This document shows, one piece after another, positions 1 to 23,642 of a stretch of DNA of 32,200 nt. This stretch comes from Alphaproteobacteria bacterium. Lineage in GTDB: Bacteria > Pseudomonadota > Alphaproteobacteria > DSM-16000 > Inquilinaceae. Under the pieces are notes generated by a model. That model saw only the letters and a list, made by a program, of their open reading frames with translations. It had not been told where the DNA came from and did not search any database. Each line of letters begins with the position of its first letter. Within the stretch, counting starts at the first letter, position 1. The position numbers and the translations under genes were made by a program. The stretch lies in contig JAAAOG010000150.1 in the NCBI GenBank assembly GCA_009909005.1, positions 1 to 32,200 of the forward strand. Direction: 5' to 3'.

Positions 1-110
1 GGCATGGAAATATCCATCCGCCGGGCCGCGCCGGCGATTTTCACTCTTGCCGGAACGAAGCCGGAACGCTATGCAGCATCTCAGGAGTCTGCGTCGGGAT
101 CTGCCGGACC

Positions 111-1742
111 ATGGCCGTCGATCAGCACAGAAAGGGCCGCGGGGCGTATTTCACCCCGCCGGCGATCGCCGACTATCTCGCCGCCTGGGCCATCCGCGCC
201 CCGGCGGACAGCGTGCTGGAGCCGGGCTGCGGGGAGGCCGGTTTTCTGCTGGCGGCCGCCCGCCGGCTGGCGGCGCTGGGCGCCCCGAACGGGCTCGCGG
301 CCGGGCAGCTGACCGGTGTCGAGGTCTACAGCGAATCGGCCGACCGCGCCCGCGCCTTGCTGGCCGGGGCTGGCGTAGCAGCGACGGTCCGGGTCGAGGA
401 TTTCTTCGAGCACCCGGCGGAGCGCCGCTACGACGTCGTCCTCGGCAACCCGCCTTTCGTGCGCTACCAGAACTTTGCCGGCCGCAACCGGGCCCGCGGC
501 CTGGAGGCGGCGCTGGCCCAGGGAATCCGCCTGTCCGGCCTCGCCAGCTCCTGGGCGTCCTTCCTTATCAAGACGTGCCTGCACCTCCAGCCCGAGGGCC
601 GGCTGGCGCTGGTCCTGCCGGCCGAGCTGCTGAGCGTCAGCTATGCCAAGGAGGTGCGGCGCTTTCTGCTGGAGCGCTTCCAGCGGGTGCGGCTGATCCT
701 GTTCGAGGAGCGGGTGTTCCCCGGGGTGCTGGAGGAGGTGGTGCTGCTGCTGGCGGAGGGCAGCGGCGGGGCCCGGTGCATCGAGGTGCACCAGGCGCGC
801 GACGTCGGCGCATTGCCGCCCGTCGAGACCGCCGCCTGGGTGAGCCATGCCCCGGCCGGGCACAGCAAATGGACCGACGCCCTGCTCGAGCGCGAGGCCT
901 TCGCACTTTATGACGATCTGCGGGCACGGTCGTTCGAGCCGCTGAGCGCCTGGGGGCGCACCTATCTGGGGGCGGTGACCGGCCGCAATGATTTTTTTGC
1001 GCTGAGCCTCGCCGAGGCCGAGCGGCTCGGGCTCAGCGAACGCGACACTCTCCGCATCTCGCCGCCCGGCACGCGCCATCTGCGCGGCCCGGCCTTCACC
1101 GAGGCCGGCTGGACCGAGCAGGCACGGCGCGGGGCACGCGGCCTGCTGCTCTATCCTCCGGACACGCCCTCGCCCGCCGCCCGGCGCTATATCGCCGAGG
1201 GCGAGGCGCGCGGCGTCGCCGACGCCTATAAGTGCCGGGTGCGGCGACCCTGGTGGCGGGTGCCGCTGGTGCCGGTGCCCGACCTGTTCCTCACCTATAT
1301 GAACCATGACCGGCCGCGGCTGGTCGCCAACGCGGCGCAGGCGCAGATCCTCAACTCTCTGTACGGCGTCACCCTGCAGGAGGGCCGCAAGACCATCGGC
1401 CGGGCGCTGCTGCCGCTCGCCTGCCTGAACAGCCTGACGCTGCTCGGCTGCGAGCTGGTCGGCCGGGCCTATGGCGGCGGCCTGCTGAAAATGGAGCCAC
1501 GCGAGGCTGACCGTCTGCCCCTGCCCTCCCTGGCGCTGTTGAAGAACCGCCGCAGCGATCTGCAGGCTCTCAAGCCGCGGCTGGCGGCGCTGCTGCAGGG
1601 CGGCCGGCTGGCGGACGCCGTCGAGGCCGTGGACGCCGTCGTGCTGGCCGATGTGCCGGTCCGCGACCGCGACGCGTTGCGGCTGGCCCGCGCCGCCCTG
1701 TTCGGCCGCCGGCGGGCGCGGGGACAGCGTGCCGGCGGTTGA
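111..1742 (+). CDS. N6-adenine DNA methyltransferase of a Type II-like restriction-modification pair
   Basis: Probably transfers a methyl group from S-adenosylmethionine to adenine N6 in a specific DNA site, protecting host DNA. The 543-residue protein opens with a GRGAYFTPP segment typical of Eco57I/TaqI-like methylases. It then has the SAM-binding motif I (VLEPGCGEAGFLLAA, about residues 35-49) and the catalytic motif IV NPPF (in VLGNPPFVRYQNF, about residues 110-122). The remaining roughly 400 residues would hold the target-recognition region. The ATG at 111 puts the GRGAYFTPP block right at the N-terminus, as expected; its ribosome-binding site is weak. The 3' end overlaps the next gene by 14 bases, implying translational coupling with a restriction partner. 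Base composition matches the chromosome, so the pair is either long resident or from a GC-rich donor. The methylase call is firm; the target site cannot be read from sequence. Confidence 0.85.
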   Translation: MAVDQHRKGRGAYFTPPAIADYLAAWAIRAPADSVLEPGCGEAGFLLAAARRLAALGAPNGLAAGQLTGVEVYSESADRARALLAGAGVAATVRVEDFFEHPAERRYDVVLGNPPFVRYQNFAGRNRARGLEAALAQGIRLSGLASSWASFLIKTCLHLQPEGRLALVLPAELLSVSYAKEVRRFLLERFQRVRLILFEERVFPGVLEEVVLLLAEGSGGARCIEVHQARDVGALPPVETAAWVSHAPAGHSKWTDALLEREAFALYDDLRARSFEPLSAWGRTYLGAVTGRNDFFALSLAEAERLGLSERDTLRISPPGTRHLRGPAFTEAGWTEQARRGARGLLLYPPDTPSPAARRYIAEGEARGVADAYKCRVRRPWWRVPLVPVPDLFLTYMNHDRPRLVANAAQAQILNSLYGVTLQEGRKTIGRALLPLACLNSLTLLGCELVGRAYGGGLLKMEPREADRLPLPSLALLKNRRSDLQALKPRLAALLQGGRLADAVEAVDAVVLADVPVRDRDALRLARAALFGRRRARGQRAGG

Positions 1743-2472
1743 CGAGGCCCTGCGTCTCGCCCTGATGCGCCAGGGCGACAAGCCGCCGGATACCGCCCGG
1801 GCCTCGGACAAGAAGCGCTACAGCGAGCGCATCTCCCACACCGTCGCCGTGACGCTGGGTGCGGAGTTTCACAGGCGCGGCCTGGAGGGGGCACGGCCGG
1901 TCGGCGCCGACCCGGGCCATGCCGATCCGACCGGCACGGAGCGGCGCATGGCGGGCGGCATCGGCGCCAAAAAGGTCGACGTCACCTGGGCGACCGAGGA
2001 ATCGGGGCTGCTGCTCGGCATCTCGATCAAGACCATCAACTTCCGGGATTCCAAGACCGGCAATTTCCAGAAGAACCTGACCAACCGCCGCGGCGACATG
2101 CTGTTCGAAGCGGTGACCCTGCACCGCCGCTTTCCCTATTCGGTGCTGGGCGGGCTGTTCTTCCTCGACGCCGCTGCGGCGCATGACGCCACCGGCCGGC
2201 GCCGTTCGACCTTCCTCAACGCCCATGCCCGGCTGCGGCTGTTCACCGGCCGCAACGACCCCGGCGGCCGCGACGAGCAGTATGAAAGCCTCTATATCGT
2301 GCTGCTGGAGGCCTCGGCCGCGAACGCCCGCATCGAAATCACCCCCGTCGGCCAGCCCGAGGCGCCGGTCAGCCTGGAAACGGCCATCGAGACCTGGCTG
2401 CACCTCACCGCCATCCGCAACCCGGATTTCTATGAGTACGAGGACGGCTGCCTGCGCAGGGTGCTGGGATGA
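1729..2472 (+). CDS. Probable restriction endonuclease partnered with the adenine methyltransferase
   Basis: Likely the cleaving subunit of the pair begun by the upstream methyltransferase. I place the start at GTG 1729, with a GGGGA ribosome-binding stretch just upstream, inside the last codons of the methylase. An ATG at 1765 is the alternative. The product has about 247 residues. A possible nuclease core is KKVDVTW followed about ten residues later by LLGISIKTINF, resembling the D...(E/D)xK arrangement of PD-(D/E)XK enzymes, but the residue two before the lysine is serine rather than Glu/Asp. Downstream are blocks FQKNLTNRRGDMLFEA and HRRFPYSVLGGLFFLD that look conserved. I do not recognise a named family with certainty, so the assignment rests on the overlap with the methylase plus this candidate motif. 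Confidence 0.6.
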   Translation: MPAVDEALRLALMRQGDKPPDTARASDKKRYSERISHTVAVTLGAEFHRRGLEGARPVGADPGHADPTGTERRMAGGIGAKKVDVTWATEESGLLLGISIKTINFRDSKTGNFQKNLTNRRGDMLFEAVTLHRRFPYSVLGGLFFLDAAAAHDATGRRRSTFLNAHARLRLFTGRNDPGGRDEQYESLYIVLLEASAANARIEITPVGQPEAPVSLETAIETWLHLTAIRNPDFYEYEDGCLRRVLG

Positions 2473-2876
2473 GGCGGAGCGGACCTCCCGGTCAAGACGG
2501 TCGCGGCGCGGCAGTCTCGCGCCGGAAGGGGCCGAACAGGCCTCGCTGCAGACGTTCCGTACTCTTCTCGGCGACGTGGACGGCCACCGCCTCGTCCTGG
2601 GTCTCGGCAATGCCCCAGAGCGGCTCGCCGAGGCTGAACAGGAATGGTTCGCCCACTTTCGAGACAGCGCGACGACCATGATCAGGCCACACCGGCCAGC
2701 CATAGTGGCAGACTAGGTGCAGCCCGCGCCGGCCCGTGTAGTGTCCGGCGTCGCTTGGTGCTTTGCCAAGCCGGCGTTGCGAATGTCGGATGAATTGACG
2801 AGGGTGATGCCGGATGGGAGCATGACACCGGACTCGGGTCGATCCCGTTGATCCGCCCGCAAATGAGGAGGCAGCC
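2473..2876. other. 404-base gap with no convincing gene
   Basis: Open frames exist on both strands here and none has a clear ribosome-binding site and recognisable motifs. A minus-strand frame ending at 2492 reads like a plausible C-terminus (LWGIAETQDEAVAVHVAEK) and a plus-strand frame ending at 2716 also has GC-rich third positions. The region may hold the remnant of a degraded gene. The segment just before 2877 carries the ribosome-binding site AGGAGG at 2866-2871 for the next gene. Confidence 0.4.
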
Positions 2877-3299
2877 GTGATCGAGGTCGCACGTTCCGTG
2901 GAAGTCAGCGAGCCGCCGGCCGTGCTGTGGGCGCGCATCGGCCCCTTCGGCGCCATCGGGGACTGGCACCCCGGCATCGCTTCGGCCGAGATGTCGAGTG
3001 TCGACGGGCGGGAGCGGCGCACGCTCACCTTGCCGAACGGGGCGGTGATCGTCGAAGACCGGACCGACGATGGCCGCACCTCCTTTACCTATAGCTATTG
3101 CATCGTCGAGAGCCCGCTGCCGGTCGCCGACTACGCGGCACGGCTGTGGGTCGAACCGCTCGGGCCGGGCTCCCGGCTGACGTGGCACGGGCGGTTCCGG
3201 CCAAGCGGCGTCGACGAGCCCACGGCAACGGACCTGATCGCCGGCATCTACGAGGCCGGCCTGAGGGCGATCGCCGAATCCACCAGGCCCGTGATCTGA
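2877..3299 (+). CDS. SRPBCC-fold (polyketide cyclase/START-like) protein
   Basis: A 140-residue protein of the SRPBCC superfamily, whose members form a small helix-grip fold with a cavity for hydrophobic ligands. It starts at GTG 2877, set by a strong AGGAGG at 2866-2871. Family signs are the opening MIEVARSVEVSEPPAVLWARIGPF strand-helix pattern, the central GDWHPGI, the strand-rich middle (RRTLTLPNGAVIVED, TSFTYSYCIV) and the final long helix (IAGIYEAGLRAIAE). The length is normal for a single-domain member. No signal peptide is visible, so it should be cytoplasmic. The ligand and reaction cannot be predicted and the neighbours give no metabolic context. Confidence 0.75.
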   Translation: MIEVARSVEVSEPPAVLWARIGPFGAIGDWHPGIASAEMSSVDGRERRTLTLPNGAVIVEDRTDDGRTSFTYSYCIVESPLPVADYAARLWVEPLGPGSRLTWHGRFRPSGVDEPTATDLIAGIYEAGLRAIAESTRPVI

Positions 3300-3383
3300 G
3301 ACCGCGCTGCCGCCGGCGCGGTTGACGCAAGGGGCGGCTCCGTGGCTTCAGAGGAACAATCCGCAATCCGGAGGCCCGGCCCC

Positions 3384-5066
3384 ATGCTCGTCCCTGCCCG
3401 CCTTGCGCCCATTCTCGCCTGCCTGCTGTTGCTGGCCGCGCTGGCCGGACACGGCCCGGCCCGCGCCCAGGGCGACGGCACGCTGACCATCGGGGTGTCG
3501 CAGTTCCCGCCGACTTTCCACCCCAGCATCGAGCCGTCGGTGGCGCAGTCCTACACCCACCACATGGCCTGGCGGCCCTTCACCACCTACGACGCGGACT
3601 GGCGGCTGATCTGCATGCTCTGCACCGAACTGCCGACGCTGGAGAACGGCCTGGCGGTGCTGGAGGAGACGCCGGAAGGTGAGGAGGGCATAGCCGTCAC
3701 CTATACCATCCGGCCCGATGCGGTCTGGGGCGACGGCACGGCCGTAACCACCGACGACGTGCTGTTCACCTGGGAAGTCGGCCGGCACCCGCAATCGGCC
3801 TTCGCCAATATCGAGCTCTACCGGCAGATCTACGCCGTCGACATTGTCGACGCGAAGACCTTCACCCTGCATTTCGACCGGGTGACCTTCACCTACAACG
3901 CCATCAACGATTTCCGGCTGCTGCCGGCGCATCTGGAGCGCCCGGTATTCGACCGCGACCCGGTCGCGTACCCGAACCGGACGCTGTACAATACCGACAC
4001 GACCCGTCCCGGCCTCTATTTCGGCCCCTACCGGATCACCGAGGTGGAGAGCGGCGCCTATATCGTGCTGGAGCCGAACGACACCTGGTACGGCGAGCCG
4101 CCGCATTTCGACCGGATCATCGTCCGCACCATCGAGAACACCGCGGCGATGGAGGCCAATCTGCTCTCCGGCTCGATCGACATGATCGCCGGCGAGAACG
4201 GCGTGACGATCGACCAGGCGCTGGCCTTCGCCGACCGGCACGGCGACGATTATCAGATCCTGTTCCAGCCCGGCCTGTTCTACGAGCATATCGACCTCAA
4301 TCTCGACAACCCGCTGCTGGCCGACCGCCGCATCCGCCAGGGGCTGCTCTACGCGCTCGATCGCGAGACCATGGTCGACCGGCTGTTCGACGGTCGCCAG
4401 CCGGTGGCGCGGACCAGCGTGTCGCCGCTCGACCACGCCTTCGCCGCGGATGCGCGCAGCTATCCGCACGACCCCGACCGCGCTGCCGCCTTGTTCGAGG
4501 ACGCCGGCTTTACGGAGATGCGCAACGGCATCCGGCACCGGGCGGACGGCACGCCGCTCGCCTTCACGCTGATGACCACGGCCGGCAATCGCACCCGCGA
4601 GCTGGTGCAGCAGGTGCTGCAGGCGCAATGGCGGGCGGCCGGCGTCGACATCAGGCTGCGGAACGAGCCGGCCCGGGTGTTCTTCGGCGGCACCGTCTCC
4701 CGCCGGGAATTCGAGGCGATGGCGATGTTCGCCTGGTTCTCCTCGCCGGAAAACGTGCCGCGCACCGTGCTGCACTCCGACCATATCCCGACGCCGGAGA
4801 ACAACTGGTCGGGCCAGAACTATACCGGCTTCACCAATGCCGCCATGGACGTGCTGATCGAGGCAACCGAGGAGGAGCTGGATGTCGAGCGCCGGCTGGA
4901 GCTGTGGCGCTGGATCCAGCGCATCTATGCCGAGGAGCTGCCGGCCCTGCCGCTGTTCCACCGCGCCAACGCCTATATCCTCCCCACCTGGCTGGAGGGC
5001 GTGGAGCCGACCGGCCACCAATACGGCACGACGCTGTGGGTCGAGCATTGGCGCCGGGCCGATTGA
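3384..5066 (+). CDS. ABC transporter substrate-binding protein, family 5 (peptide/oligopeptide type)
   Basis: A periplasmic receptor that delivers a solute, usually a peptide or small metal or opine complex, to an ABC importer. I choose ATG 3384 over the upstream ATG 3342 because it has GGAGG at 3370-3374 and gives a clean signal peptide: MLVPARLAPILACLLLL, then cleavage near ARAQ. The mature part shows SBP_bac_5 features: TIGVSQFPPTFHPS at the start, YTIRPDAVWGDGTAVTTDDVLFTWE, GLYFGPYRITE and LADRRIRQGLLYALDRETMVDRLF. The length of 560 residues is normal. No permease or ATPase genes lie beside it, so it is an orphan receptor or its transporter is encoded elsewhere. Family assignment is firm; the substrate is unknown. 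Confidence 0.88.
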   Translation: MLVPARLAPILACLLLLAALAGHGPARAQGDGTLTIGVSQFPPTFHPSIEPSVAQSYTHHMAWRPFTTYDADWRLICMLCTELPTLENGLAVLEETPEGEEGIAVTYTIRPDAVWGDGTAVTTDDVLFTWEVGRHPQSAFANIELYRQIYAVDIVDAKTFTLHFDRVTFTYNAINDFRLLPAHLERPVFDRDPVAYPNRTLYNTDTTRPGLYFGPYRITEVESGAYIVLEPNDTWYGEPPHFDRIIVRTIENTAAMEANLLSGSIDMIAGENGVTIDQALAFADRHGDDYQILFQPGLFYEHIDLNLDNPLLADRRIRQGLLYALDRETMVDRLFDGRQPVARTSVSPLDHAFAADARSYPHDPDRAAALFEDAGFTEMRNGIRHRADGTPLAFTLMTTAGNRTRELVQQVLQAQWRAAGVDIRLRNEPARVFFGGTVSRREFEAMAMFAWFSSPENVPRTVLHSDHIPTPENNWSGQNYTGFTNAAMDVLIEATEEELDVERRLELWRWIQRIYAEELPALPLFHRANAYILPTWLEGVEPTGHQYGTTLWVEHWRRAD

Positions 5067-5351
5067 CAGAATATCTGACGTCAATCTGTAAATAAAGTTT
5101 CCCAAAAATCGCATCTCTTGTCCAGTATCGGACCGGCCGGTTTTTTTCGCCTGGGCGCTTTCTTTTGAAGATTCCGACGGATCATCGCCAAACCGTCACA
5201 GAAGATCGTCTGTGCGCTATGACGGGCCGCCATAGGGCGCACGCTCTCGCCGCCAGTCGGTCTATAACTCAGGCCTCGGGAAAAAGAAACCGCATAACCC
5301 TCCCGAGGATGTCCCGGTTCCACCGGTTGAGTTCTACTTGCTTCAACGGCA
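5067..5351. other. AT-richer intergenic junction, left edge of acquired segment
   Basis: Base composition drops sharply right after the binding-protein stop codon. The stretch holds a ten-base palindrome ACCGGCCGGT (5132-5141) running into a seven-T tract (5141-5147). This might act as a weak terminator, but the palindrome folds only a three-pair stem with a normal loop. It also holds an inverted repeat CACAGA...TCTGTG near 5198-5216. No open frame here is convincing. Confidence 0.35.
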
Positions 5352-6233
5352 TCACACGATCAGCCGCGTCAGAAACATAATTGCTTCTTCAACACGCTGG
5401 CGAATAGACTGCAGCTGCGGAATATCGAATTTTCCGGCCGTGCCATGCGTGCCTTTATTAAATGTGTGGAAGAGCTGCACAACATTTTCCATGTCCGCCT
5501 CAACAAAGGATTCCAGCTCGTCCTGCCCCATTCCCTTTAAATCTAGGATGTATTTGATCCGGGCGCGACGGGTCGGCGTGCCCTGCTGCGTCCGCTGGCA
5601 ATTGGGGATCGCGCTACTGACGGCATCATCCGGAGCTTTCGTATCGAGAATTCCGGCGATGATCTCTCGCGCGCTAGTGCAGAAATGCCTCGCGGCATCT
5701 GGGTTCCGGGGACTCAAGGCAAACAGAGCGCCCTGCCATCGGTCGGCAAGATCATCCGAGACACGGCGAAGGAGAGGCGTCACCTGACTGTCAGCCGAGT
5801 CCGGCCACGCCGCTTCCGACTCCGGCTCGGCATCTCCGAGCAGTGCATTCATGAGGCCTGCGTTGTTGGCGGCCTCCCGTTCAGACAGATCCAGAATGTC
5901 GTTGTAGCGCTCGTCGTAACGATCGGACTCCGCTGCTGATTCCAGCCGATCATAAGCGTACTGTACCTGACTGACTGACGCGCGAAACGTCGCATACTGT
6001 CCGGTGTTGCTCTTACGGGCGAGTTTGCCGATTTCGCTTTTCAACCGTTGCCGATTGGCGCGAACCCTCTGATTATGCGCCCTGACCTCGCGATTGTAAT
6101 TGTCTACTGCCTGTTTGACCTTTTGGTTATACTCCCGGACTTTGCTGTTATAGTTGTTAATCGCTTGGCGCTTTTTTTGCTCTAGCTGTCTAGCCTTGTT
6201 CTTTAATTGCGAAAAATTGATCTTTCTGGCCAT
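5352..6233 (-). CDS. Candidate pPIWI-associating nuclease family protein
   Basis: A 293-residue basic protein. I set the start at the ATG at 6233, preceded by GAGGTAAAT, rather than the in-frame ATG at 6287. Residues 1-70 are a charged, probably coiled-coil region with an 18-residue repeat (NYNSKVREYNQKVKQA, then NYNREVRAHNQRVRAN). The C-terminal half has blocks HFCTSAREI, GTPTRRARIKYIL and FNKGTHGTAGKFDI. These resemble, from memory, proteins annotated as predicted pPIWI-associating nucleases, a family proposed from neighbourhoods of prokaryotic PIWI genes. No PIWI gene is next to it here. I see no textbook PD-(D/E)XK triad, so nuclease activity is inference. Codon use is AT-richer than the chromosome, suggesting horizontal transfer. 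Confidence 0.5.
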   Translation of the reverse strand: MARKINFSQLKNKARQLEQKKRQAINNYNSKVREYNQKVKQAVDNYNREVRAHNQRVRANRQRLKSEIGKLARKSNTGQYATFRASVSQVQYAYDRLESAAESDRYDERYNDILDLSEREAANNAGLMNALLGDAEPESEAAWPDSADSQVTPLLRRVSDDLADRWQGALFALSPRNPDAARHFCTSAREIIAGILDTKAPDDAVSSAIPNCQRTQQGTPTRRARIKYILDLKGMGQDELESFVEADMENVVQLFHTFNKGTHGTAGKFDIPQLQSIRQRVEEAIMFLTRLIV

Positions 6234-6305
6234 ATTTACCTCACAAATTTTGTCTTCATATGCGTCATGCCCTTGTGAGCACGGCAAATCTTACCACGTG
6301 GCCGA

Positions 6306-6334
6306 AAAATATCCTACCGATACGATTGAGGCAA
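6306..6334 (-). promoter_or_regulatory. Possible sigma-70-type promoter for the 5352-6233 gene
   Basis: Read on the minus strand, TTGCCT (complement of 6329-6334) and TATTTT (complement of 6306-6311) are separated by 17 bases and lie about 75 bases upstream of the ATG at 6233. The spacing and -10-like box are reasonable, but single promoters in AT-rich DNA are easy to find by chance. Confidence 0.3.
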
Positions 6335-6367
6335 CCTGCAATCTTCCTCTTATCGCCGCATTTTAAA

Positions 6368-6778
6368 TCACCTATGGCCGCGAGGGCTGGACAGGCGGAG
6401 GAGTGGGATGGCGTCGCTGTGGTGGCGGTCTGCCTCCAATCTGGCGAGGTCGCGAACGCTGCTTAGCAGCACACGCAGAGTGCCGAGCTGGGCGCGTGCA
6501 AGGGCATCCTGCTCGACCTCCCGGATCGTGAATTCAATCATCGCCTCGACGCCGGCCAGAGTTGTGGGCCGGTAGTCCTCCAGCAGAGCGTAGAGGGGCG
6601 AGACGAGGTCGTGGAGCGGTTGCTCATCGTCAGGCCGGGCGGCGCGGCTCCAGGCTTCGACCATGTCATGCAGGGCAATCAGAATGGTCGTAATCTCTCC
6701 GTCCGCGGGTCGCGGCGCATGCGCCAGCATGGTGCGGATCAGTTCGGTTCCAAAGGACTCTGTGTTGGATGATGGCAT
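6368..6778 (-). CDS. Hypothetical helical protein divergent from an XRE regulator
   Basis: A 136-residue protein of unknown function. The start at ATG 6778 is favoured over 6832 because GGAGGG lies about eight bases upstream, and because 6832 would put the N-terminus over the inverted repeat shared with the divergent regulator. The sequence is leucine- and alanine-rich and predicted helical throughout (for example TTILIALHDMVEAWSRAA, LYALLEDYRPTTLAGVEAMI), with no signal peptide or membrane segment. GC content is close to chromosomal. Its 5' end faces the XRE-type gene 90 bases away, so the two are probably co-controlled through the operator between them. I do not recognise the family. Confidence 0.6.
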   Translation of the reverse strand: MPSSNTESFGTELIRTMLAHAPRPADGEITTILIALHDMVEAWSRAARPDDEQPLHDLVSPLYALLEDYRPTTLAGVEAMIEFTIREVEQDALARAQLGTLRVLLSSVRDLARLEADRHHSDAIPLLRLSSPRGHR

Positions 6779-6826
6779 GGCCGCGCCCTCCGTAATTGAC
6801 CATCGCTCAAGCTTAGGCCAAAATAG

Positions 6827-6874
6827 TGACATATGGCGGCGGCCATGTCAATATATTGAGCTGACCTTATGTCA
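6827..6874. promoter_or_regulatory. Putative operator: three TGACAT half-sites between divergent genes
   Basis: The intergenic region has TGACAT at 6827-6832 and its complement ATGTCA at 6845-6850, forming an inverted repeat, with a second ATGTCA at 6869-6874 that includes the start codon of the XRE-type gene. A TATATT box (6852-6857) sits between the two ATGTCA copies. The layout fits autoregulation by the HTH protein encoded at 6869. The half-sites are seen directly; binding is inferred. Confidence 0.45.
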
Positions 6875-7111
6875 AAAAACATAATCACACCGGAGCAATG
6901 CCGCATGGCGCGCGGGGCGTTGAACTGGAGCCAGGCCAAGCTGGCCGCCAAGGCTAATGTTGCCAAGCAGACCCTGGCCGATTTCGAGCGCGGTGCCCGA
7001 AACCCCTACGACCGCACACTCATGGACATCCGTTCGGCTCTGGAAGCGGCCGGCATCATCTTCATCGATACCAATGGCGGTGGCCCGGGGGTGCGTCTGG
7101 GCGAGCCCTAA
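6869..7111 (+). CDS. XRE/Cro-type helix-turn-helix transcriptional regulator
   Basis: A compact 80-residue DNA-binding protein made of little more than one HTH_3 domain. Residues 9-40 (QCRMARGALNWSQAKLAAKA, then VAKQTLADFERGARNP) are the classic helix pattern, with the recognition helix around VAKQTLADFE. The tail AALEAAGIIFIDTNGGGPGVRLGEP is a common ending for small alphaproteobacterial XRE proteins. The ATG at 6869 has only a weak ribosome-binding site. It probably represses itself and the divergent gene through the TGACAT half-sites between them. A toxin-antitoxin role is possible given its size, but no toxin is recognisable beside it. Confidence 0.8.
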   Translation: MSKNIITPEQCRMARGALNWSQAKLAAKANVAKQTLADFERGARNPYDRTLMDIRSALEAAGIIFIDTNGGGPGVRLGEP

Positions 7112-7228
7112 TGAAAATGTTGGCTTTGCAGACCGTTTCTTGACTCACCCAAGGAACGTTGACTTCTAGTAAATCAACTTTCCAAAAAATGGCGGACAAA
7201 CAATGGTGTCGGCGCTCGATGATACAGT

Positions 7229-7942
7229 TCACCACCTAAAAGCAGTTACCAGCGCAGCGCTGATATTTGGGAAAAGTTGTGATAAATGTCGCTCAGAAAT
7301 TTCATCTAGAGTCACACCTTGTTCTCGTAAAGACCTAATTCTAGAAAAGGCGTCAGGATGGAGTTGTAATAATCTCTCTACCATATCTAAAGCATTTGCA
7401 TACTCTTCATTCACACCGGGCTGATATCTCAAAGATTGCAATTTGTTTAAGCAATTATCGTCATGCTCAAACCAGTCTTCCAATAACTGACTTGCAAAAT
7501 ACTCAGCAAGCCCCTCTTCAAAGTAAGAGGCTGTTCCAGGCCCAGGGTCAATAAGATGCATAGCCTCGTGTGCAAGTTGATACGATGCTACGCATTCATC
7601 GTGCGAATTTTCAGAAGGAATTTGAACAATTACATACCTCTCCCCAGAATCGTGCCGGGGATACCAGACCTTAGGCCGGGAGGAGTCTATGACTAATTCA
7701 ACGCCTAGGATCGTATATTCTTTATTTCTCTCCCCAATACGCTCTTCGATGTAATCGATTGCATTTCCCAGACGGGATACAAGTGTCCAAGTGTAGGTGC
7801 ATTCTTCATTGTCGCAGCTTTCTGTTTCCAGCACATGCTGAGCAGGTGCGTTTTGTGGAGTATTTACTGTTGAGCATGCCGCAAGGATTGATGTCAAAAA
7901 CACTGACGCGACGAAGTATCGTAGATTTCGCGAAGTCTTCAT
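7229..7942 (-). CDS. Lipoprotein with gluzincin zinc-metalloprotease signature
   Basis: A 237-residue predicted lipoprotein. The N-terminus has a basic start, hydrophobic stretch FVASVFLTSIL and lipobox LAAC with lipidated Cys23, so it should be anchored on the periplasmic side of a membrane. A HExxH zinc motif is present as HEAMH at 125-129, followed by EEGLAEYFA at 142-150, whose glutamate can serve as the third ligand as in gluzincins. GAGGGT lies six bases before the ATG. The gene is strikingly AT-rich compared with every neighbour, a clear mark of transfer from a low-GC source. Cysteines at 43, 48 and 117 could form disulfides. The substrate is unknown; protease activity is inferred from the motif. 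Confidence 0.68.
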   Translation of the reverse strand: MKTSRNLRYFVASVFLTSILAACSTVNTPQNAPAQHVLETESCDNEECTYTWTLVSRLGNAIDYIEERIGERNKEYTILGVELVIDSSRPKVWYPRHDSGERYVIVQIPSENSHDECVASYQLAHEAMHLIDPGPGTASYFEEGLAEYFASQLLEDWFEHDDNCLNKLQSLRYQPGVNEEYANALDMVERLLQLHPDAFSRIRSLREQGVTLDEISERHLSQLFPNISAALVTAFRW

Positions 7943-8164
7943 GTTACCCTCTGGATTGCACCTTACATAATCTTAAGGTAGCAATGTTTATCCTGTCTGA
8001 CAATAAAAAACTTTGACGGTTGCAGAGGGTTACGTTGCGACCGACGATCCCTTTCGAAAAAAATTGAAGAGCTCGGGACCGCGCTTTCGCGAGATGACAG
8101 GTGGGGCCACCGAACGTTACGGCCGATGTGCCTCCGCGCTTATGCCTGGAGGGCGGACGGCCGA
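7943..8164. other. Intergenic, right edge of the AT-rich segment
   Basis: The first part (to about 8060) is AT-rich and holds the upstream region of the lipoprotein gene. The composition then returns to chromosomal GC toward 8164. No open frame with a convincing start is seen, and no flanking direct repeat matching the 5.1 kb edge was found by eye. Confidence 0.35.
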
Positions 8165-8716
8165 TCAGTCAACAATGCCGTCATAGATCGTCGCCAAGCC
8201 GATCTCCAAAGCGAGCGATGCCAGCGGCAATGCGGCATCGCCTTCAAGTTCTTGCAGGCGCCAGTCCGTGCCCCGCCGGGTCCAGAGTTCGACCTTGCGA
8301 CGATCCGCATGCAGCAAAACGATTTCCTGCAGCGATGGGACCTCCCGGTATTTCGGCAGCTTGACCAGCCGGTCCTCTCGCGCCGTCCCGCGCGACAGGA
8401 TTTCAAAAACAGTCTGCGGATACAGGTGATACGATGTCGTCAGATCGATCGGGACACAAAATACAGCCAAGTCGGCAACAAAAAACGAATCGTCTGCATT
8501 GGAAAATGCAATACCTGCGTCGATGACGCCCTGGCAAGGCTTTTGAAGGTTTGTCTCCAGGATGCTCGCCAATCTCATCTGCAACCGGCCATGCCCGAAT
8601 TTTGCCGGCGCCATGGCGACCGGGACGCCGTCGATCAGCTCGTAGCGGCGGTCGGTGCCGTCATCCCATTCCAGGAATTCGGCCAGGGTCATGCGGCGGA
8701 TCGCGGGATCGGCCAT
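8165..8716 (-). CDS. Uma2 family endonuclease (DUF820)
   Basis: A 183-residue member of the Uma2/DUF820 family, which adopts a restriction-endonuclease-like fold and is often found in multiple copies in bacteria with no assigned role. Diagnostic segments in order are MTLAEFLEWDDGTDRRYELIDG (residues 9-30), where the glutamate of YELIDG is conserved, then FFVADLAVF, which carries the P/A-D-x motif, and VFEILSRGTAREDRLVKLPKYREVPSLQEIVLL. It starts at ATG 8716 with GGAG upstream and is divergent from hypB. Length is typical. Composition is nearly chromosomal. Nuclease activity is a fold-based prediction; no biological target is known. Confidence 0.85.
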   Translation of the reverse strand: MADPAIRRMTLAEFLEWDDGTDRRYELIDGVPVAMAPAKFGHGRLQMRLASILETNLQKPCQGVIDAGIAFSNADDSFFVADLAVFCVPIDLTTSYHLYPQTVFEILSRGTAREDRLVKLPKYREVPSLQEIVLLHADRRKVELWTRRGTDWRLQELEGDAALPLASLALEIGLATIYDGIVD

Positions 8717-8755
8717 CGGGCTCGCTCCGGCAATTGAGAGGCACGCGCAACGCGA

Positions 8756-8769
8756 CTGATCTGGATCAT
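8756..8769. promoter_or_regulatory. FNR/FixK-like binding site upstream of hypB
   Basis: TGAT (8757-8760), four bases CTGG, then ATCA (8765-8768) matches the core of the FNR/FixK consensus TTGAT-N4-ATCAA except for the outermost base on each side. It lies about 120 bases before hypB and 40 bases before the Uma2 start on the other strand. A TTTAAT at 8798-8803 could be the matching -10 element. Oxygen-responsive control of hyp genes by such regulators is established in other bacteria; use here is inferred. Confidence 0.45.
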
Positions 8770-8889
8770 GGACCGGCCGTGCGGACCTGTCTCATGCTTT
8801 AATGTGAGAGAGTATAGCAAAGCGCAACAGCCTCCGGGCGACAATCCGCGACAGCCGGGCTTTCCGGGCGACTGAAAGGACAGCCGATC

Positions 8890-9972
8890 ATGTGCAGTGT
8901 GTGCGGCTGCGGCCATGGCGAGGCGACCATCGAGGGCGGGGCAACAGGCCACGGCCACGCTCATCACCATGATCATCACGACCATGATCATCACGGCCAC
9001 GATCATCACGGCCATGATCATCATGGCCACGATCATGATCATCACGGCCATGGTCACCACCACGATCACGGCCATGACCATCATCACGGTCATGATCATG
9101 GCGATCACGGCGACCATGCTCACGGCCACGCCCATGGCCACGGCCATGCCCATACGCACGCCCACAGCCATGCCGAGGCGCATGCGGCCGCCCATGCGGC
9201 CGGCGTCCGGCACGCCCACGACCATGACCATGACCACGATCATGCCCACCACCATGCTCACGGGCATGCTGCCGATCCCGCCCGGGCGCGGATCATCAGC
9301 GTCGAGCGCGACATCCTGGCCAAGAATGACGAGTTCGCCGGCGCCAACCGCCTGCTGTTCCGCAGCCTCGGCGTCCTCTGCCTGAACCTCGTCTCCAGCC
9401 CGGGCGCCGGCAAGACGACGCTGCTGGTGCGCACCCTCGACGCGATCAAGGACCGGCTGACCACCGCGGTGATCGAGGGCGACCAGCAGACCGGCCTGGA
9501 TGCCGACCGCATCCGCGCGACCGGCGTCCCGGCCGTCCAGATCAACACCGGCAAGGGCTGCCATCTCGACGCGCAGATGATCACCCGGGCCGCCGGCTCG
9601 CTCGGCCTCGCCCCTGGGTCGGTGCTGTTCATCGAGAATGTCGGCAACCTCGTCTGCCCGGCCGGCTTCGACCTCGGCGAGGCGCACAAGGTGGTCATGG
9701 TCTCGGTCACCGAGGGCGACGACAAGCCGCTGAAATACCCGGACATGTTCGCCGCCGCCGACCTGATGCTGGTGACCAAGATCGACCTGCTGCCCTATCT
9801 GCCGGCCGATGCCGATACGCTCATCGCCAATGCCCGCAAGGTCAACCCGAAGATCGAAGCGCTGAAGGTCTCGGCGACCGCCGGCGACGGCATGGCCGAC
9901 TGGCTCGCCTGGCTCGACCGCGAGCGCGCCGCCCTGGCGGCGGGCGACGCCGCCGGCGCGGCGGCCGAATAG
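8890..9972 (+). CDS. hypB: Hydrogenase nickel-incorporation GTPase HypB
   Basis: GTPase that, with HypA, inserts nickel into the large subunit of [NiFe]-hydrogenase after the Fe(CN)2CO centre is built. The N-terminus MCSVCGCG is the high-affinity nickel motif. It is followed, to about residue 129, by a metal-storage tract holding about 56 histidines, mostly in HDH, HGH and HAH runs. The GTPase domain follows with P-loop SSPGAGKTT (about 168-176), the GDQQTGLDA switch, [11 protein letters not shown] with the metal-binding cysteine and histidine, and VTKIDLL as the NKxD-like base-recognition motif. The 360-residue length reflects the long histidine tract. It heads the operon hypB-F-C-D; hypF begins four bases after its stop. 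The partner hypA is not in this window. Confidence 0.96.
8986..9030 (+). repeat. 15-base tandem repeats inside the hypB histidine tract
   Basis: Three adjacent units of GATCATCACGGCCAC (8986-9000) with one or two silent changes in the second and third copies, encoding DHHGH three times. The near identity suggests recent slippage-driven length change of the metal-storage tract. Confidence 0.75.
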
Positions 9973-9976
9973 CGCC

Positions 9977-12241
9977 ATGCCCGACGCCGCCGCCGCTCCT
10001 CTCGCGCGCCGCCGGGTGCGGGTGCGCGGCCTGGTCCAGGGGGTCGGCTTCCGCCCTTATGTCTACGCCCTGGCGCGGGCGCACGGCCTGACCGGCTGGG
10101 TGCTGAACGACGGCGACGGCGTGCTGCTGGAGGTGCAGGGTTTCGAGACCGGGCGGTTCCTGACCGACCTGGAGCGGCGGCCGCCGCCGCTCGCCCGCAT
10201 CGACGCCGTCGAAGCGACCGGCATGCCGGCCCAGGCTGGCGAGTGCAACTTCACCATCCGGGAGAGCGAAGGCGGCGCCGTCTCCACGGCGATCTCAGCC
10301 GACGCGGCCGTCTGCCCGGACTGTCTGGCCGAGCTGTTCGATCCCGCCGACCGGCGCTACCGCTATCCCTTCCTCAACTGCACCCATTGCGGGCCGCGCT
10401 ATACCATCACCCGCCGCCTGCCCTATGACCGGCCGCAGACCGCCATGGCCGGCTTTCCGCTCTGCCCGGACTGCGCCCGGGAGTACGCCGACCCCGCCGA
10501 CCGCCGCTTCCACGCCCAGCCTGTCGCCTGCCCGGCCTGCGGCCCGCGCCTCTCGCTGCCGGTCGAGGACATCCTCGCGGCGATCCGGGCCGGCCGCATT
10601 GTCGGGCTGAAGGGGCTCGGCGGCTTCCACCTCGTCTGCGATGCCCGCAATGCCGAGGCCGTCGAGCGCCTGCGGGCCCGCAAGCACCGCGACGCCAAAC
10701 CTTTTGCGTTGATGGTCGCGAACCCGGAGAGCGCCGCCGCGCTGGCCGAAATCGGACCGGAGGAAGCGCGGCTGCTCACCGGCGTCGAGCGGCCGGTCGT
10801 TCTGCTGCGCCGGCATGAGGGCGCGCCGCCCCTGCCCGAGGCCATCGCCCCGGGGCTCGGCTGGCTGGGCGTCATGCTGCCCTATACGCCGCTGCACTAT
10901 CTGCTGTTCCACGAGGCGGCCGGCCGGCCCGCCGGCACCGCCTGGCTCGGCGCGCCGCAGGACCCGTGCCTGGTGATGACCAGCGCCAATCCCGGCGGCG
11001 AGCCGCTGGTCATCGGCAATGAGGAGGCCCGACAGCGCCTCGCCGGCATCGCCGATATCATCGTCGACCATGACCGCGACATCGTCATCCGCGCCGACGA
11101 CAGCGTCACGCGGGTGATCGCCGGTGCCCCGGCGCCGCTGCGCCGGGCCCGCGGCACTGTGCCCAAGGCCATCCGCCTGGCCCGGACGGGGCCGCCGGTG
11201 CTGGCGGTCGGCGACTATCTGAAGACGACGATCTGCGTCACCCGCGGCGACGAGGCCTTCCTCTCCCAACATATCGGCGATCTCGACAATGCCGCGACCA
11301 TCGGCTTTTTCGAGGAGACGGTCGCCCATCTCCTCCACGTCCTGCAGGTCGAGCCGATTGCGGTGGCACACGACCCGCACCCGGATGTCTGGTCGACACG
11401 CTTCGCCGCCGGCATTGGCCTGCCCAGCATCGCCGTCCAGCATCATCACGCCCATATCGCCGCGGTGCTGGCCGAGCACCGGGTGACCCGCCCGGCTCTC
11501 GGCCTCGCCCTCGATGGCGTCGGCCTGGGCCGCGATGGCGGCATCTGGGGCGGCGAGCTGCTGCGGGTCGACGGCCCGGACTTCGATCGGCTCGGCCATT
11601 TGCGGCCGCTCGCCCTGCCCGGCGGCGACATTGCCGCCCGCCAGCCCTGGCGCATGGCCGCTTCGGCGCTGCACGCGCTCGGCCGCGGCGACGAGATCCC
11701 GGCCCGCCTCGGGAGCCATGGCGATGCCGCGGGGATCGCCCGGATGCTCGACCGTGGCATCAACGCGCCGCTCACCAGCTCCTGCGGCCGGCTGTTCGAT
11801 GCCGCCTGCGGGCTGCTCGGCGTCGTGCCGCAGGCCCGCTATGAGGCCGAGGCGCCGATGGCGCTGGAATCGCTGGTCCGCACGCCGCGGGTTCTGGCGG
11901 ATGGCTGGCGGATCGACGAGGACGGCCGTCTCGACCTCCTGCCGCTGCTGGCGGCGCTGATCGGCCGCGACCCGGCGGACGGGGCGGAGCTGTTCCACGG
12001 CACCCTGGCCGCCGCGCTGGTCGCCTGGACGCTGCCGGCCCTTTCGGCCCATGACCTCGACACGGTCGCGCTCGGCGGCGGCTGCCTGTGCAACGCCGTG
12101 CTGGCCGAAGGGCTGATCGCCGGTTTCGCGGCGCAGGGCGTCACCGCCCTCTACCCCCGCCAGGCGCCGGCCAATGACGGCGGGCTGGCTCTGGGCCAGG
12201 CCTGGGTCGCGGCCCGGGCCCTCGAAGAACACTCTCTTTAG
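9977..12241 (+). CDS. hypF: Carbamoyltransferase HypF
   Basis: Makes the thiocarbamate precursor of the cyanide ligands of [NiFe]-hydrogenase by moving the carbamoyl group of carbamoyl phosphate to HypE. Domains are in the usual order. An acylphosphatase-like domain covers about 10-100 (VRVRGLVQGVGFRPYVYALA). Two zinc-finger-like modules cover about 110-190 (CPDC...CTHCG and CPDC...CPACG). A YrdC-like domain covers about 200-390 (LKGLGGFHLVCDA, KHRDAKPFALM). A Kae1-like domain fills the remainder (VQHHHAHIAAVLAEH, LALDGVGLGRDGGIWGGELL, VALGGGCLCNAVL). The length of 754 residues is full. It starts four bases after hypB and ends 15 bases before hypC, so it is part of one transcript. Its acceptor HypE is not encoded nearby. 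Confidence 0.97.
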   Translation: MPDAAAAPLARRRVRVRGLVQGVGFRPYVYALARAHGLTGWVLNDGDGVLLEVQGFETGRFLTDLERRPPPLARIDAVEATGMPAQAGECNFTIRESEGGAVSTAISADAAVCPDCLAELFDPADRRYRYPFLNCTHCGPRYTITRRLPYDRPQTAMAGFPLCPDCAREYADPADRRFHAQPVACPACGPRLSLPVEDILAAIRAGRIVGLKGLGGFHLVCDARNAEAVERLRARKHRDAKPFALMVANPESAAALAEIGPEEARLLTGVERPVVLLRRHEGAPPLPEAIAPGLGWLGVMLPYTPLHYLLFHEAAGRPAGTAWLGAPQDPCLVMTSANPGGEPLVIGNEEARQRLAGIADIIVDHDRDIVIRADDSVTRVIAGAPAPLRRARGTVPKAIRLARTGPPVLAVGDYLKTTICVTRGDEAFLSQHIGDLDNAATIGFFEETVAHLLHVLQVEPIAVAHDPHPDVWSTRFAAGIGLPSIAVQHHHAHIAAVLAEHRVTRPALGLALDGVGLGRDGGIWGGELLRVDGPDFDRLGHLRPLALPGGDIAARQPWRMAASALHALGRGDEIPARLGSHGDAAGIARMLDRGINAPLTSSCGRLFDAACGLLGVVPQARYEAEAPMALESLVRTPRVLADGWRIDEDGRLDLLPLLAALIGRDPADGAELFHGTLAAALVAWTLPALSAHDLDTVALGGGCLCNAVLAEGLIAGFAAQGVTALYPRQAPANDGGLALGQAWVAARALEEHSL

Positions 12242-12256
12242 GGAAGGACGGAACCC

Positions 12257-12511
12257 ATGTGCCTGGCATTCCCCGCGCAGGTCATCGAACTGCTGCCGGC
12301 CGAGCAGGCGGTGGTCGACCTCGACGGCGTGCGCAAGACGGTCTCGGTGCTGCTGCTGGAGGACGTCGCGATCGGCGAGTATGTGATGGTCCATGTCGGC
12401 TTCGCGCTGGCCAAGGTCGACGCCGAGGAGGCCGCCCAGACCCTCGCCCTGATGAAGGAAGCGATGGCCCTGACCGGGCCGCTCGCCGATCGCGAGGAGG
12501 TCCCGGCATGA
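12257..12511 (+). CDS. hypC: Hydrogenase maturation chaperone HypC
   Basis: Small chaperone (84 residues) that works with HypD to assemble the Fe(CN)2CO unit and then binds the hydrogenase large-subunit precursor. The invariant start MCLAFP is present, with Cys2 as the functional residue, followed by the typical beta-barrel strands (AVVDLDGVRKTVSVLLL, GEYVMVHVGFALAKVD) and a helical tail (EEAAQTLALMKE). GGAAGGAC precedes the ATG. Its stop overlaps the hypD start as ATGA, so the two are translationally coupled. Confidence 0.97.
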   Translation: MCLAFPAQVIELLPAEQAVVDLDGVRKTVSVLLLEDVAIGEYVMVHVGFALAKVDAEEAAQTLALMKEAMALTGPLADREEVPA

Positions 12512-13647
12512 GGTTCGTCGACGAATTCCGCGACGGCGCCGTCGCCCGCACCCTTGCCGCCCGCATCGCCGATTTGGTCGAGCCCGGCCGGTCCTATCGG
12601 CTGATGGAGTTCTGCGGCGGCCACACCCACACCATCAGCCGCTACGGGCTGGAGGATTTGCTGCCGGAGAGCATCCGGCTGATCCACGGCCCCGGCTGCC
12701 CGGTCTGCGTGCTGCCGATCGGCCGGCTCGACATGGCCATCGACCTTGCCCGGCGGCCGGAGGTGATCCTCTGCTGCTATGGCGACATGATGCGGGTGCC
12801 GGCTTCCGGCCGCGCCAGCCTGATGCGCGCCAAGGCGGACGGTGCGGATGTCCGCATGGTCTATGCCAGCACCGACGCGCTGGCCCTGGCCCGGGCCAAC
12901 CCCGACCGCGAGGTCGTCTTCTTCGCCATCGGCTTCGAAACCACGACGCCGGCCACCGCCGCCGCCCTGAAGCAGGCCGGGGCGATGGACCTCGGCAATT
13001 TCAGCGTCTTCTGCAACCATGTGCTGACCCCTTCGGCCATCGCCGCCATCCTGTCGCTGGAAGACAGCCCGGACGGCGAAGGCCTGCAGGTCGACGGCTT
13101 TGTCGGTCCCGGCCATGTCAGCACGGTCATCGGATCGGCCCCGTACGAGCCCTTTGCCCGCGATCATGGCAAGCCGATCGTCGTGTCGGGCTTCGAGCCG
13201 CTCGACATCCTGCAGTCGGTCGAGATGCTGGTGGTGCAGTTGAACCAGGGCCGGGCCGAGGTCGAGACCCAGTACAGCCGCGCCGTCGGCCGCGACGGCA
13301 ACCGCAAGGCGCTGGACCTGATCCGCGAGACCCTGGCCTTGCGCGAGTCGTTCGAATGGCGCGGCCTGGGCAGCATCCCGGAGAGCGCGCTCAGGGTCGC
13401 CGATGCCTATGCCGCGTTCGACGCCGAGCGCAAATTCGGCCCGGAGTCGCTCTCCGTGCCCGACCATCCGGCCTGCGAATGCGGCACCATTCTGCGCGGC
13501 GTCAAGCGCCCGGCCGAATGCCGCATCTTCGGCACCGGCTGCACCCCGGACAACCCGATCGGCTCCTGCATGGTCTCCCCCGAAGGCGCCTGCGCCGCCC
13601 ACTATCTTTATGGCCGCTTCCGCACCGAGAGAGCGGCCGCGGAATAG
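12508..13647 (+). CDS. hypD: Hydrogenase iron-cofactor assembly protein HypD
   Basis: Iron-sulfur scaffold protein on which, with HypC, the cyanide and CO ligands are attached to iron. The product has 379 residues and begins at the ATG overlapping the hypC stop, with GAGGAGG just upstream. Conserved blocks are MEFCGGHTHTI (Cys36), GPGCPVCVLP (61-70), GFETTTPATA and FCNHVLTP. The C-terminal cysteine cluster for the 4Fe-4S centre is CECGTILRGVKRP...CRIFGTGCTPDNPIGSCMVSPEGACAAHY. Length is normal. hypE commonly follows hypD, but here a convergent recombinase gene starts its stop codon only 23 bases downstream. Confidence 0.97.
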   Translation: MRFVDEFRDGAVARTLAARIADLVEPGRSYRLMEFCGGHTHTISRYGLEDLLPESIRLIHGPGCPVCVLPIGRLDMAIDLARRPEVILCCYGDMMRVPASGRASLMRAKADGADVRMVYASTDALALARANPDREVVFFAIGFETTTPATAAALKQAGAMDLGNFSVFCNHVLTPSAIAAILSLEDSPDGEGLQVDGFVGPGHVSTVIGSAPYEPFARDHGKPIVVSGFEPLDILQSVEMLVVQLNQGRAEVETQYSRAVGRDGNRKALDLIRETLALRESFEWRGLGSIPESALRVADAYAAFDAERKFGPESLSVPDHPACECGTILRGVKRPAECRIFGTGCTPDNPIGSCMVSPEGACAAHYLYGRFRTERAAAE

Positions 13648-13670
13648 GGAGAAGCCGGCTCGGCATCCCG

Positions 13671-14624
13671 CTACCCCGGGGGGCGTTGCACGCGGAGGAG
13701 GGTGGCGCGGAGGCTTTCGTCGCTGACGGCCGTGTACATTTCGGTGGTCGAGATGCTCTGGTGGCCGAGCAGCTTCTGGACGAAGCGGATGTCGACGCCG
13801 GCCTCCAGCAGCTGGGTCGCCGCCGTGTGGCGCAGCATATGCGGGGTGATCTGGCGCTCCAGCCCGGCCTCCTCCGCCAGATCGTGCAAATGCTTGCGGA
13901 CGAACTGGGCCGTCGCCGGCACCCCGCGCCCGGTCACCAGAACGAGGTCGGTGAGCGGCGCCGCCCGCTCCCGGAGCGCCACATAGGTCTCGACCAGAGC
14001 CGCCATCGCCTGATCGACCAGAAACACCCGCCGCTCGCGATCGCCCTTGCCGTGGATGCGGATCACCGACGACGGCAGGTCGACGTCCCGCAGGCGGATG
14101 GACGTCAGCTCCCCCACCCGCACGCCCGTGGTCAGCATCACCTCGATCGCCACAAGCGCGGTGAAGGCGTCGAAGTTCCCGACATCCACCGCCCGGCGCA
14201 GCACCGCGCGGTCATAGGGCACCCCGGCCCGCAGGCCCAGCCGCCGCACCGCCGCCGCCACCACGGCCTTCGACTCGTGTCCGCTGAGCGCCCGCGGCAG
14301 CCGCTTCGGCAGGCGGATGCGCACGCCGAGCCGGTGGAAGGGCGACAGCGTGATCACCTCGTCCGACTCCAGCCAGTTGAACATCACCTTCAGGCAGGCC
14401 ATGCGGCGCTTGACGCTGGACGCCTTGAGCCCGCGCGCATCGACCAGATGCTGGAGAAAGGCGCGCAGGCGCAGCCGGTCGATTGCCTCGACATCGACGC
14501 CCGGGCCGACAAAGGCCTGAAACTCGGCCAGATCGACGCCATAGGCGCGCAACGTGTTGCGCGACAGGGTCTTGGCCAGCCGGCAATGCACGAGAAACTG
14601 CTCGCAGGCCTCGTCAAGCGTCAT
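13671..14624 (-). CDS. Tyrosine recombinase (phage integrase / XerD-like)
   Basis: Site-specific recombinase of 317 residues that would cut and rejoin DNA through a covalent phosphotyrosine intermediate. An N-terminal SAM-like core-binding domain (about 1-90: EACEQFLVHCRLAKTLSRNT) precedes the catalytic domain with all active residues: Arg169 (TTGVRVGEL), Lys193 (HGKGDRERR), His262 and Arg265 (HMLRHTAAT), His288 (LLGHQSISTTEMYT) and nucleophile Tyr297. It therefore looks intact. It is convergent with hypD, and its upstream region holds an 18-base palindrome. Size and form are XerC/D-like rather than a typical tRNA-targeting phage integrase, so it may belong to a small mobile unit. Its partner sites cannot be identified from this window. 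Confidence 0.9.
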   Translation of the reverse strand: MTLDEACEQFLVHCRLAKTLSRNTLRAYGVDLAEFQAFVGPGVDVEAIDRLRLRAFLQHLVDARGLKASSVKRRMACLKVMFNWLESDEVITLSPFHRLGVRIRLPKRLPRALSGHESKAVVAAAVRRLGLRAGVPYDRAVLRRAVDVGNFDAFTALVAIEVMLTTGVRVGELTSIRLRDVDLPSSVIRIHGKGDRERRVFLVDQAMAALVETYVALRERAAPLTDLVLVTGRGVPATAQFVRKHLHDLAEEAGLERQITPHMLRHTAATQLLEAGVDIRFVQKLLGHQSISTTEMYTAVSDESLRATLLRVQRPPG

Positions 14625-14680
14625 GGGAGCATGGTGACGGTCAGTGGAACCACCCGAGCGGGCAATACCGGGATTTATTC

Positions 14681-14698
14681 ATTAGTTAGCGAACTAAT
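14681..14698. promoter_or_regulatory. 18-base palindrome ATTAGTT-AGCG-AACTAAT
   Basis: Perfect 7-base arms around a 4-base centre, 57 bases upstream of the recombinase start. It is an AT-rich patch in GC-rich DNA and has no T-run, so it is not a terminator. It resembles operators of MarR-type regulators (TTAG-N-TAGC-type palindromes), but no such regulator gene is adjacent. It could instead be a recombination site. Confidence 0.4.
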
Positions 14699-14814
14699 CA
14701 ACCGTAAAAGAGACCGGGGTATGCAACATCGCGGGCTGTGGTCGCGGCGACCGCGGCCCGGAGCCGGGGGCGCTCCGGCCGCGTGGGTCAAAAGGATCGG
14801 CGCATCGGACCGGT

Positions 14815-17956: not shown

Positions 17957-18076
17957 GTCGCGGTCTCCCGAAGCATCGGAGCGGGGCGGGGCCTGCCAGA
18001 CATAGGCCGTGCCGGGCCGAACCCCAATGTCGCGGCCGCCACCGGCGCCGCCCTGTGTCCCCCGAACCACCCGAGA

Positions 18077-19800: not shown

Positions 19801-19803
19801 GCC

Positions 19804-20967: not shown

Positions 20968-21212
20968 CGCCTAACCCCATGACGGATCGCGGGAACGGGG
21001 CGGCCGGCGGCCACCGCCCCGGCTCATAAACCCGGATCATAGGATAGATCGTCCCCCCGCGGTAGGGCATGCGAGGGCCGCGATCCCTGTCCCCGGATCT
21101 GGTGACCACCGGGCCGGGCGCCATGCAGGCCGCTCGCCCGTGCGGTGGTTGACAGGAGCGGCAAAACCGCCGACCGTTCGACGTTTCGCGGAGCCGGAGG
21201 AGAGCCGCCGCC

Positions 21213-23094: not shown

Positions 23095-23135
23095 AATAAA
23101 ACCATTATATCACCATTAGCGGGAAGGCGCCAGGC

Positions 23136-23603: not shown

Positions 23604-23642
23604 GATCCTCCAGCCTCCCAAAGACCGGAGGCCCCCGCGCAT

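Follow-up and report, generated by a model that had tools for sequence, protein, structure and literature searches.

Background

Pfam describes the family pP_pnuc_1 (PF18165) as a predicted pPIWI-associating nuclease, a name that implies a PIWI gene close by. Our literature search found no relevant paper naming pP_pnuc or PF18165, and the available portions of two papers that treat pPIWI neighbourhoods (PMC3702460, PMC2743648) do not describe this helical family. The candidate defence system PDC-S66, which occurs in the portion of PMC12482510 available to us, is a single gene that joins an Asn-rich N-terminal coil, starting at the Met, to a TIR effector. The HEPN RNase toxins (HepT, AF0298, Csm6) are helical bundles that carry the arginine of an Rx4-6H motif. 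In the accessible part of their description, CoCoNuTs (coiled-coil nuclease tandems) combine a coiled coil with a nuclease and belong to a type IV restriction (McrBC) branch.

Here we compare with these systems a gene in a window of 32,200 nucleotides, by which we mean the whole stretch of alphaproteobacterial DNA that was analysed. We tentatively favour the view that it encodes a one-gene effector against phages (or plasmids), acquired horizontally and acting by abortive infection, with a coil as sensor or oligomeriser and a HEPN-like RNase toxin domain. New in this analysis are the likeness of the coil to TIR proteins, the absence of a shared partner gene and the reassessment of the "PIWI-associating" name.

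A solitary gene in a low-GC segment

The gene, its parts and its neighbours in the window are the following.

5352..6233, minus strand: gene for the pP_pnuc_1 (PF18165) protein, 293 codons (293 aa), ATG at 6233
6239..6242, minus strand: Shine-Dalgarno-like GAGG, 5 nt upstream of this ATG
6018..6215, minus strand: N-terminal Asn-rich coiled coil, residues 7-72, periods 7 and 18, resembling the TIR coils of loci L010, L012 and L013
5370..5765, minus strand: C-terminal pP_pnuc_1 domain, residues 157-288, matched by Pfam and all-helical by prediction
5664..5690, minus strand: R182-H183-x3-S187-x-R189-E190 block, named residues invariant in 8/8 aligned members
5445..5459, minus strand: N259-K-G-T-H263 motif, N and H invariant in 8/8, in the loop preceding the last predicted helix
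6368-6832, minus strand: protein of 154 residues without a family match, same low-GC segment
6869-7111, plus strand: XRE-type regulator, same low-GC segment
7229-7942, minus strand: lipoprotein-like protein, same low-GC segment; lipobox and a metallopeptidase-like HEAMH motif identified by visual inspection
8165-8716, minus strand: Uma2 protein (PADLOC PDC-S03), after the low-GC segment

The reading frame is that of the first-pass annotation, and the C-terminal blocks quoted there are present in its translation. The GAGG 5 nt before the ATG makes a ribosome-binding site plausible, and the start Met is common to the homologues L002-L005, whose alignment begins at the same residue. The surrounding segment had been called AT-rich, and indeed its GC content is 52.6% over about 3 kb (5067-8160) vs 69.6% on one side (1-5066) and 70.2% on the other (8717-21500), the gene itself having 54% vs about 70% in its flanks. 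It is probably a horizontally acquired, solitary gene. In an empty-site comparison, the upstream gene 3342-5066 was present in 5 of 16 other genomes of the same bacterial family, and in four of these five we looked through the 12-20 kb around its homologue for a further 22 window ORFs, many of them only mechanical, none of which was present.

Among the neighbours, the 154-residue protein is divergently oriented to the XRE gene, which resembles restriction-modification (R-M) control proteins (PADLOC Control_protein, 7.2e-14). The lipoprotein-like protein, for which Pfam gave no family match, lies where the GC content of the window is lowest (46%), and its HEAMH motif is zincin-like. The Uma2 protein is the nearest recognised defence candidate to the pP_pnuc_1 gene within the window.

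Family membership and distribution

The first-pass annotation had proposed a pP_pnuc family and a Pfam search to check it, and this search settles the assignment: residues 157-288 match PF18165 over profile positions 3-133 of 133 with 161.9 bits (curated cut-off 26.3) and E 8.1e-48. PADLOC matches the protein to Aga_Nuclease (E 1.1e-13), and all 8 members of our alignment A2 match PF18165.

Plasmids of Phaeobacter, Sphingobium, Bradyrhizobium and Dinoroseobacter carry full-length relatives with 42-54% identity in the alignment, as does a contig of a Rhodobacter MAG; for Dinoroseobacter, three equally long records gave the same match, and one of them was used. Distant relatives (21-22% identity) with the domain in common lie on Leptospira and Leptolyngbya plasmids. 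A ninth plasmid match, from Clavibacter, covers the coil only and was left out of the relatives. Invariant in all 8 aligned members are W166, G168, A169, R182, H183, S187, R189, E190, L196, A200, V205 and R222, together with F243, F255, N259, H263 and R280.

The source genome has one copy. Counting this genome each time, the family profile matched 1 of 17 genomes of the order, 2 of 385 of the class (the second at only 20.5 bits, below the cut-off) and 1 of 398 of the phylum; with matches in so few genomes the gene is rare, and its vertical history cannot be drawn. Searches of phages returned no relatives of the window protein (P0001) or of the L012 TIR coil, and five viral-contig scans gave no relatives either.

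Defence neighbourhoods without a shared partner gene

At 6 of 7 distinct loci, recognised defence genes lie within 8 kb of the homologue, as judged by product names, PADLOC and Pfam.

L002: Dcm-type methylase, EcoRII-C, PDC-M33A (partial, 8.6e-20)
L003: PaeR7I-type R-M pair, ending 9 nt upstream of the pP_pnuc gene
L004 (Dinoroseobacter plasmid), 9234-12477, minus strand: RT_UG9 (1.9e-242) adjoining an RT-associated PolA-like polymerase, beside the pP_pnuc gene
L005: LmuA and LmuB (Lamassu)
L007: RT_UG5-nitrilase-like protein (1e-40)
L008: type I R subunit

The seventh locus, L006 (Bradyrhizobium plasmid), yielded no recognised defence gene by these means. By product names, cyclase-domain, E2-domain, DUF2235 and AAA genes lie there beside the pP_pnuc gene (8919-16347, minus strand), and this group might be a signalling-type defence cluster. 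In a small control, product names indicated defence genes in none of six distant, similar-sized stretches of the same six plasmids; these stretches were judged by names alone and the test loci by PADLOC as well, and if PADLOC is set aside, five of the six test loci on plasmids still count. pP_pnuc_1 is a catalogued but uncharacterised family, and the gene is a real, defence-type one.

We also compared all proteins against all others (E <= 1e-5; frames of at least 60 residues, taken from the seven loci and from the window's first 14 kb). Beyond the pP_pnuc gene and antisense frames, the loci had in common only two conjugation genes (L003 and L004) and an IstB IS21 helper (L003 and L005), and none of the seven contained a relative of the XRE, lipoprotein-like or 154-residue gene of the window. 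The survey of homologues' neighbours that had been proposed showed no PIWI gene at these loci, as far as product names and scans of some neighbours reach, and offers no shared partner in its place. With no neighbour gene shared, the earlier suggestion of joint action with the lipoprotein protease or the XRE gene is unsupported, and on present evidence both genes stand outside the proposed mechanism.

An N-terminal coil resembling that of TIR proteins

The N-terminus had been described as an 18-residue-repeat coiled coil, and the repeat is genuine: self-identity is 31% at a shift of 18 and 29% at a shift of 7, and the shift-18 value was reached by 0 of 20,000 shuffles and, at any shift from 3 to 32, by 0 of 3,000. 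In the predicted model, residues 7-72 form one helix.

TIR proteins encoded on actinobacterial plasmids have an N-terminus to which the window coil can be aligned from its first Met. A coil profile built from six coil-bearing pP_pnuc members scored 48.0 bits against the L010 TIR gene (34.9 if the longer open frame is taken, and about 33-34 for the best domain), 21.8 bits against L012 and 18.8 bits against L013, scores that include large bias corrections of 17-34 bits. Among 200 shuffles the highest score was 9.5 bits, and among 887 frames only the members and these three TIR genes were matched; the TIR protein L014 (Niallia) was not matched by this profile. With up to 12 candidates scored in each genome, a combined profile of both coil kinds matched the source genome alone out of 372 in the class at E <= 1e-5, and is therefore not a generic coiled-coil detector. 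By tblastn, the Sphingobium coil retrieved the L010 TIR gene at 2e-4 and the L013 TIR coil retrieved the Bradyrhizobium member at 4e-3, with a second member at 0.07, on a par with an unrelated match at 0.05. The window coil reached TIR only at 1e-2, the L012 coil retrieved TIR genes alone at E <= 0.01, and the Bradyrhizobium coil retrieved no TIR at E <= 1.

PDC-S66 is matched by the TIR protein P0003 at 6.8e-32 over both coil and TIR; the relative at L003 matches PDC-S66 at E 0.027. A similar Asn-rich coil starting at the Met may link the window protein to PDC-S66, whereas the effectors differ, being TIR in PDC-S66 and pP_pnuc_1 here; the window protein has no PADLOC match to PDC-S66, and no match to a TIR domain, at E <= 1. 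The likeness suggests a portable coil with exchangeable effectors. Extending this, the (Y/H)N-repeat Asn-rich coil could be a portable trigger or oligomerisation module of one-gene bacterial immune proteins whose killers are exchangeable (TIR in actinobacterial plasmids, pP_pnuc_1 here), with pP_pnuc_1 being a divergent HEPN-type toxin that has no intrinsic PIWI tie, although we consider this combined proposal doubtful. If the coil is a sensor common to TIR and pP_pnuc effectors, coil swaps could show what such coils detect.

An unannotated stretch of the Clavibacter plasmid (L011, 5001-5171, plus strand) resembles the coil only (57 residues, 42%, E 5e-7) and could be a remnant or belong to a third type of protein.

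The C-terminal domain and its possible activity

The C-terminal domain is predicted to be all-helical in AlphaFold models of low confidence (from two sequences; mean pLDDT 67.1 for the whole protein and 62.2 for the domain alone). When the domain model was compared with solved structures by VIA-align, 8 of the 50 listed rows were HEPN proteins, as recognised by title, except for 7bxo and the Csm6 entry 6tug, which we take to be HEPN proteins. They are 2hsb (Z 8.4, 116 residues, 3.6 A), 6m6w (Z 8.3, 124 residues, 3.8 A), 6m6u and 7bxo (both Z 8.0), 8xdj (7.2), 3o10 (7.1), 8xeh (7.0) and 6tug (7.0). The best of the 50 listed rows is a vinculin tail at Z 8.7, the HEPN proteins score on a level with vinculin, FAT and designed bundles, and such Z values are common for helical bundles. 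Foldseek gave no match at E <= 0.001 for either the full-length or the domain model, its comparison of the domain model with 7bxo_F having E 1.6, probability 0.63 and TM 0.50/0.55. Fold matches of the full-length model were to coils and bundles only (catenin, vinculin). Sequence searches of solved structures gave one chance match for P0001 (E 1.7) and a best E of 0.39 for the domain profile A2, nothing relevant in either case. Of the "nuclease" in the first-pass annotation the family name therefore stands, while the structure prediction suggested there has demonstrated no nuclease fold and hints weakly at a HEPN-like bundle.

The invariant N-x3-H (N259, H263) precedes the last helix, where HEPN domains would end their Rx4-6H. 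At the position of the Rx4-6H arginine, the window protein has H, three of the 8 members have R (as R-x6-H), and the rest have H, D or Y, so that the window protein itself lacks the HEPN motif. Ex3[KR] is a secondary motif of many, though not all, HEPN families. No K or R stands four residues past the invariant E190, which need not be the place of such a motif in pP_pnuc_1. The part of PMC3710099 available to us describes one family in which the H is kept and the R is gone, and suggests that other basic residues take its place; by analogy, R182, R189 or R222 would be candidate substitutes for the missing arginine.

None of the HEPN families in Pfam was matched by any of the 8 members even at E <= 10. 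Profile comparison by hhalign, using 19 of 20 matches for DUF4145, 20 of 35 for HepT and 20 of 56 for Hpt as an unrelated control, gave probabilities of 0.2% for DUF4145, 0.7% for HepT and 2.6% for Hpt, and only 4.6% for a HEPN-HEPN control pair; in global mode the values were, in the same order, 1.6, 0.2, 0.7 and 6.6%. The unrelated control thus scored as high as the HEPN families or higher, and HEPN assignment by this route is unsupported, the HEPN-HEPN pair also being weak. Set against the HEPN RNase toxins, the window protein has a bundle of similar size in its weak model (Z 7.0-8.4) and a conserved N-x3-H before the last helix, but neither the Rx4-6H arginine nor a significant sequence or profile match. 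Our tentative view is that the domain may work like HEPN, as the models hint; we do not place it within the HEPN superfamily. The pairing of a coiled coil with a putative nuclease also recalls the CoCoNuTs, from which the window gene differs in that no McrB-type gene is present among its scanned neighbours.

It is possible, if on the low side of probability, that the protein is an effector acting alone in defence, its helical domain having a non-HEPN fold and the activity of a DNA nuclease or another enzyme. This would fit the missing Rx4-6H arginine and the hhalign result, which favours HEPN no more than an unrelated bundle, and the invariant R182, H183, S187, R189, E190, R222, N259, H263 and R280 could form another kind of site; two weak points argue for HEPN instead, namely the frequency of HEPN chains among the structural matches listed for the domain model and the position of N-x3-H ahead of the last helix. 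We regard it as unlikely that the domain binds protein or RNA without catalysing a reaction and that the protein is a regulator or adaptor rather than a killer. The arginine of Rx4-6H is indeed not conserved, and motif-less HEPN domains are described as probable RNA binders in the accessible part of PMC3710099, but R182, H183, N259 and H263 are invariant in 8/8 members from three phyla, which suits an active site while being no proof of one, and no partner gene is shared.

According to the HEPN-like effector reading, which we prefer and which draws on analogy with one-gene effectors, the Asn-rich coil would oligomerise and/or sense the invader, for instance a phage, and thereby bring the C-terminal pP_pnuc_1 domains together. 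These would then act like HEPN RNase toxins, cutting (or binding) RNA, and the RNA damage would stop the growth of the infected cell, resulting in abortive infection. In this reading the gene would offer a small, one-gene defence candidate that can be put to the test.

The PIWI connection

The first-pass annotation had remarked on the lack of a PIWI neighbour. We likewise found none among 5 window neighbours scanned with Pfam, and PF02171 (Piwi) has 0 matches in the 96%-complete source genome while detecting its control, Methanocaldococcus jannaschii; with this profile, then, no PIWI gene was seen adjacent to the gene or elsewhere in the genome. RNaseH_pPIWI_RE (PF13032) also had 0 matches in the genome, but no control matched it either, which makes this result uninformative.

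The absence had been read as peculiar to this copy, for which the homologues give no support. No PIWI or Argonaute gene is named in the six plasmid stretches (about 8 kb on each side, with incomplete gene tables and most hypothetical proteins unscanned), and none was found by Pfam among ten neighbour proteins of homologous loci; for the MAG contig of 11 kb, profile scans covered three neighbours and the remainder were read as ORFs. Since product names and partial scans show no PIWI gene at any of the seven homologous loci, its absence at the window is usual rather than special, and looks like the normal state of this pP_pnuc_1 branch. The window protein is covered by PF18165 over nearly the whole profile and far over its cut-off, yet lacks the PIWI neighbour that the name implies, as do the seven loci, and adds an N-terminal coil. 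That it is a partner nuclease of a pPIWI/Argonaute protein encoded elsewhere and working in trans, as the Pfam family name and the Aga_Nuclease label might suggest, is very improbable and for the source genome largely refuted, given the lack of a Piwi match there with a working control, the six plasmid loci without a named PIWI gene (in incomplete tables) and the ten scanned neighbours without one. The effector reading would thus correct a misleading family name.

Other features of the window

About 16 kb from the pP_pnuc_1 gene, an MZA-like defence operon (22102-30940, minus strand) comprises MzaB, MzaC, MzaD and MzaE (PADLOC), with Vsr and a DrmMII-like cytosine methylase. Its scores lie below the NCBIfam equivalog cut-offs, which points to a diverged version. 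A tRNA-Ser(tga) at 21567-21656 coincides with a drop in GC and is a possible integration site.
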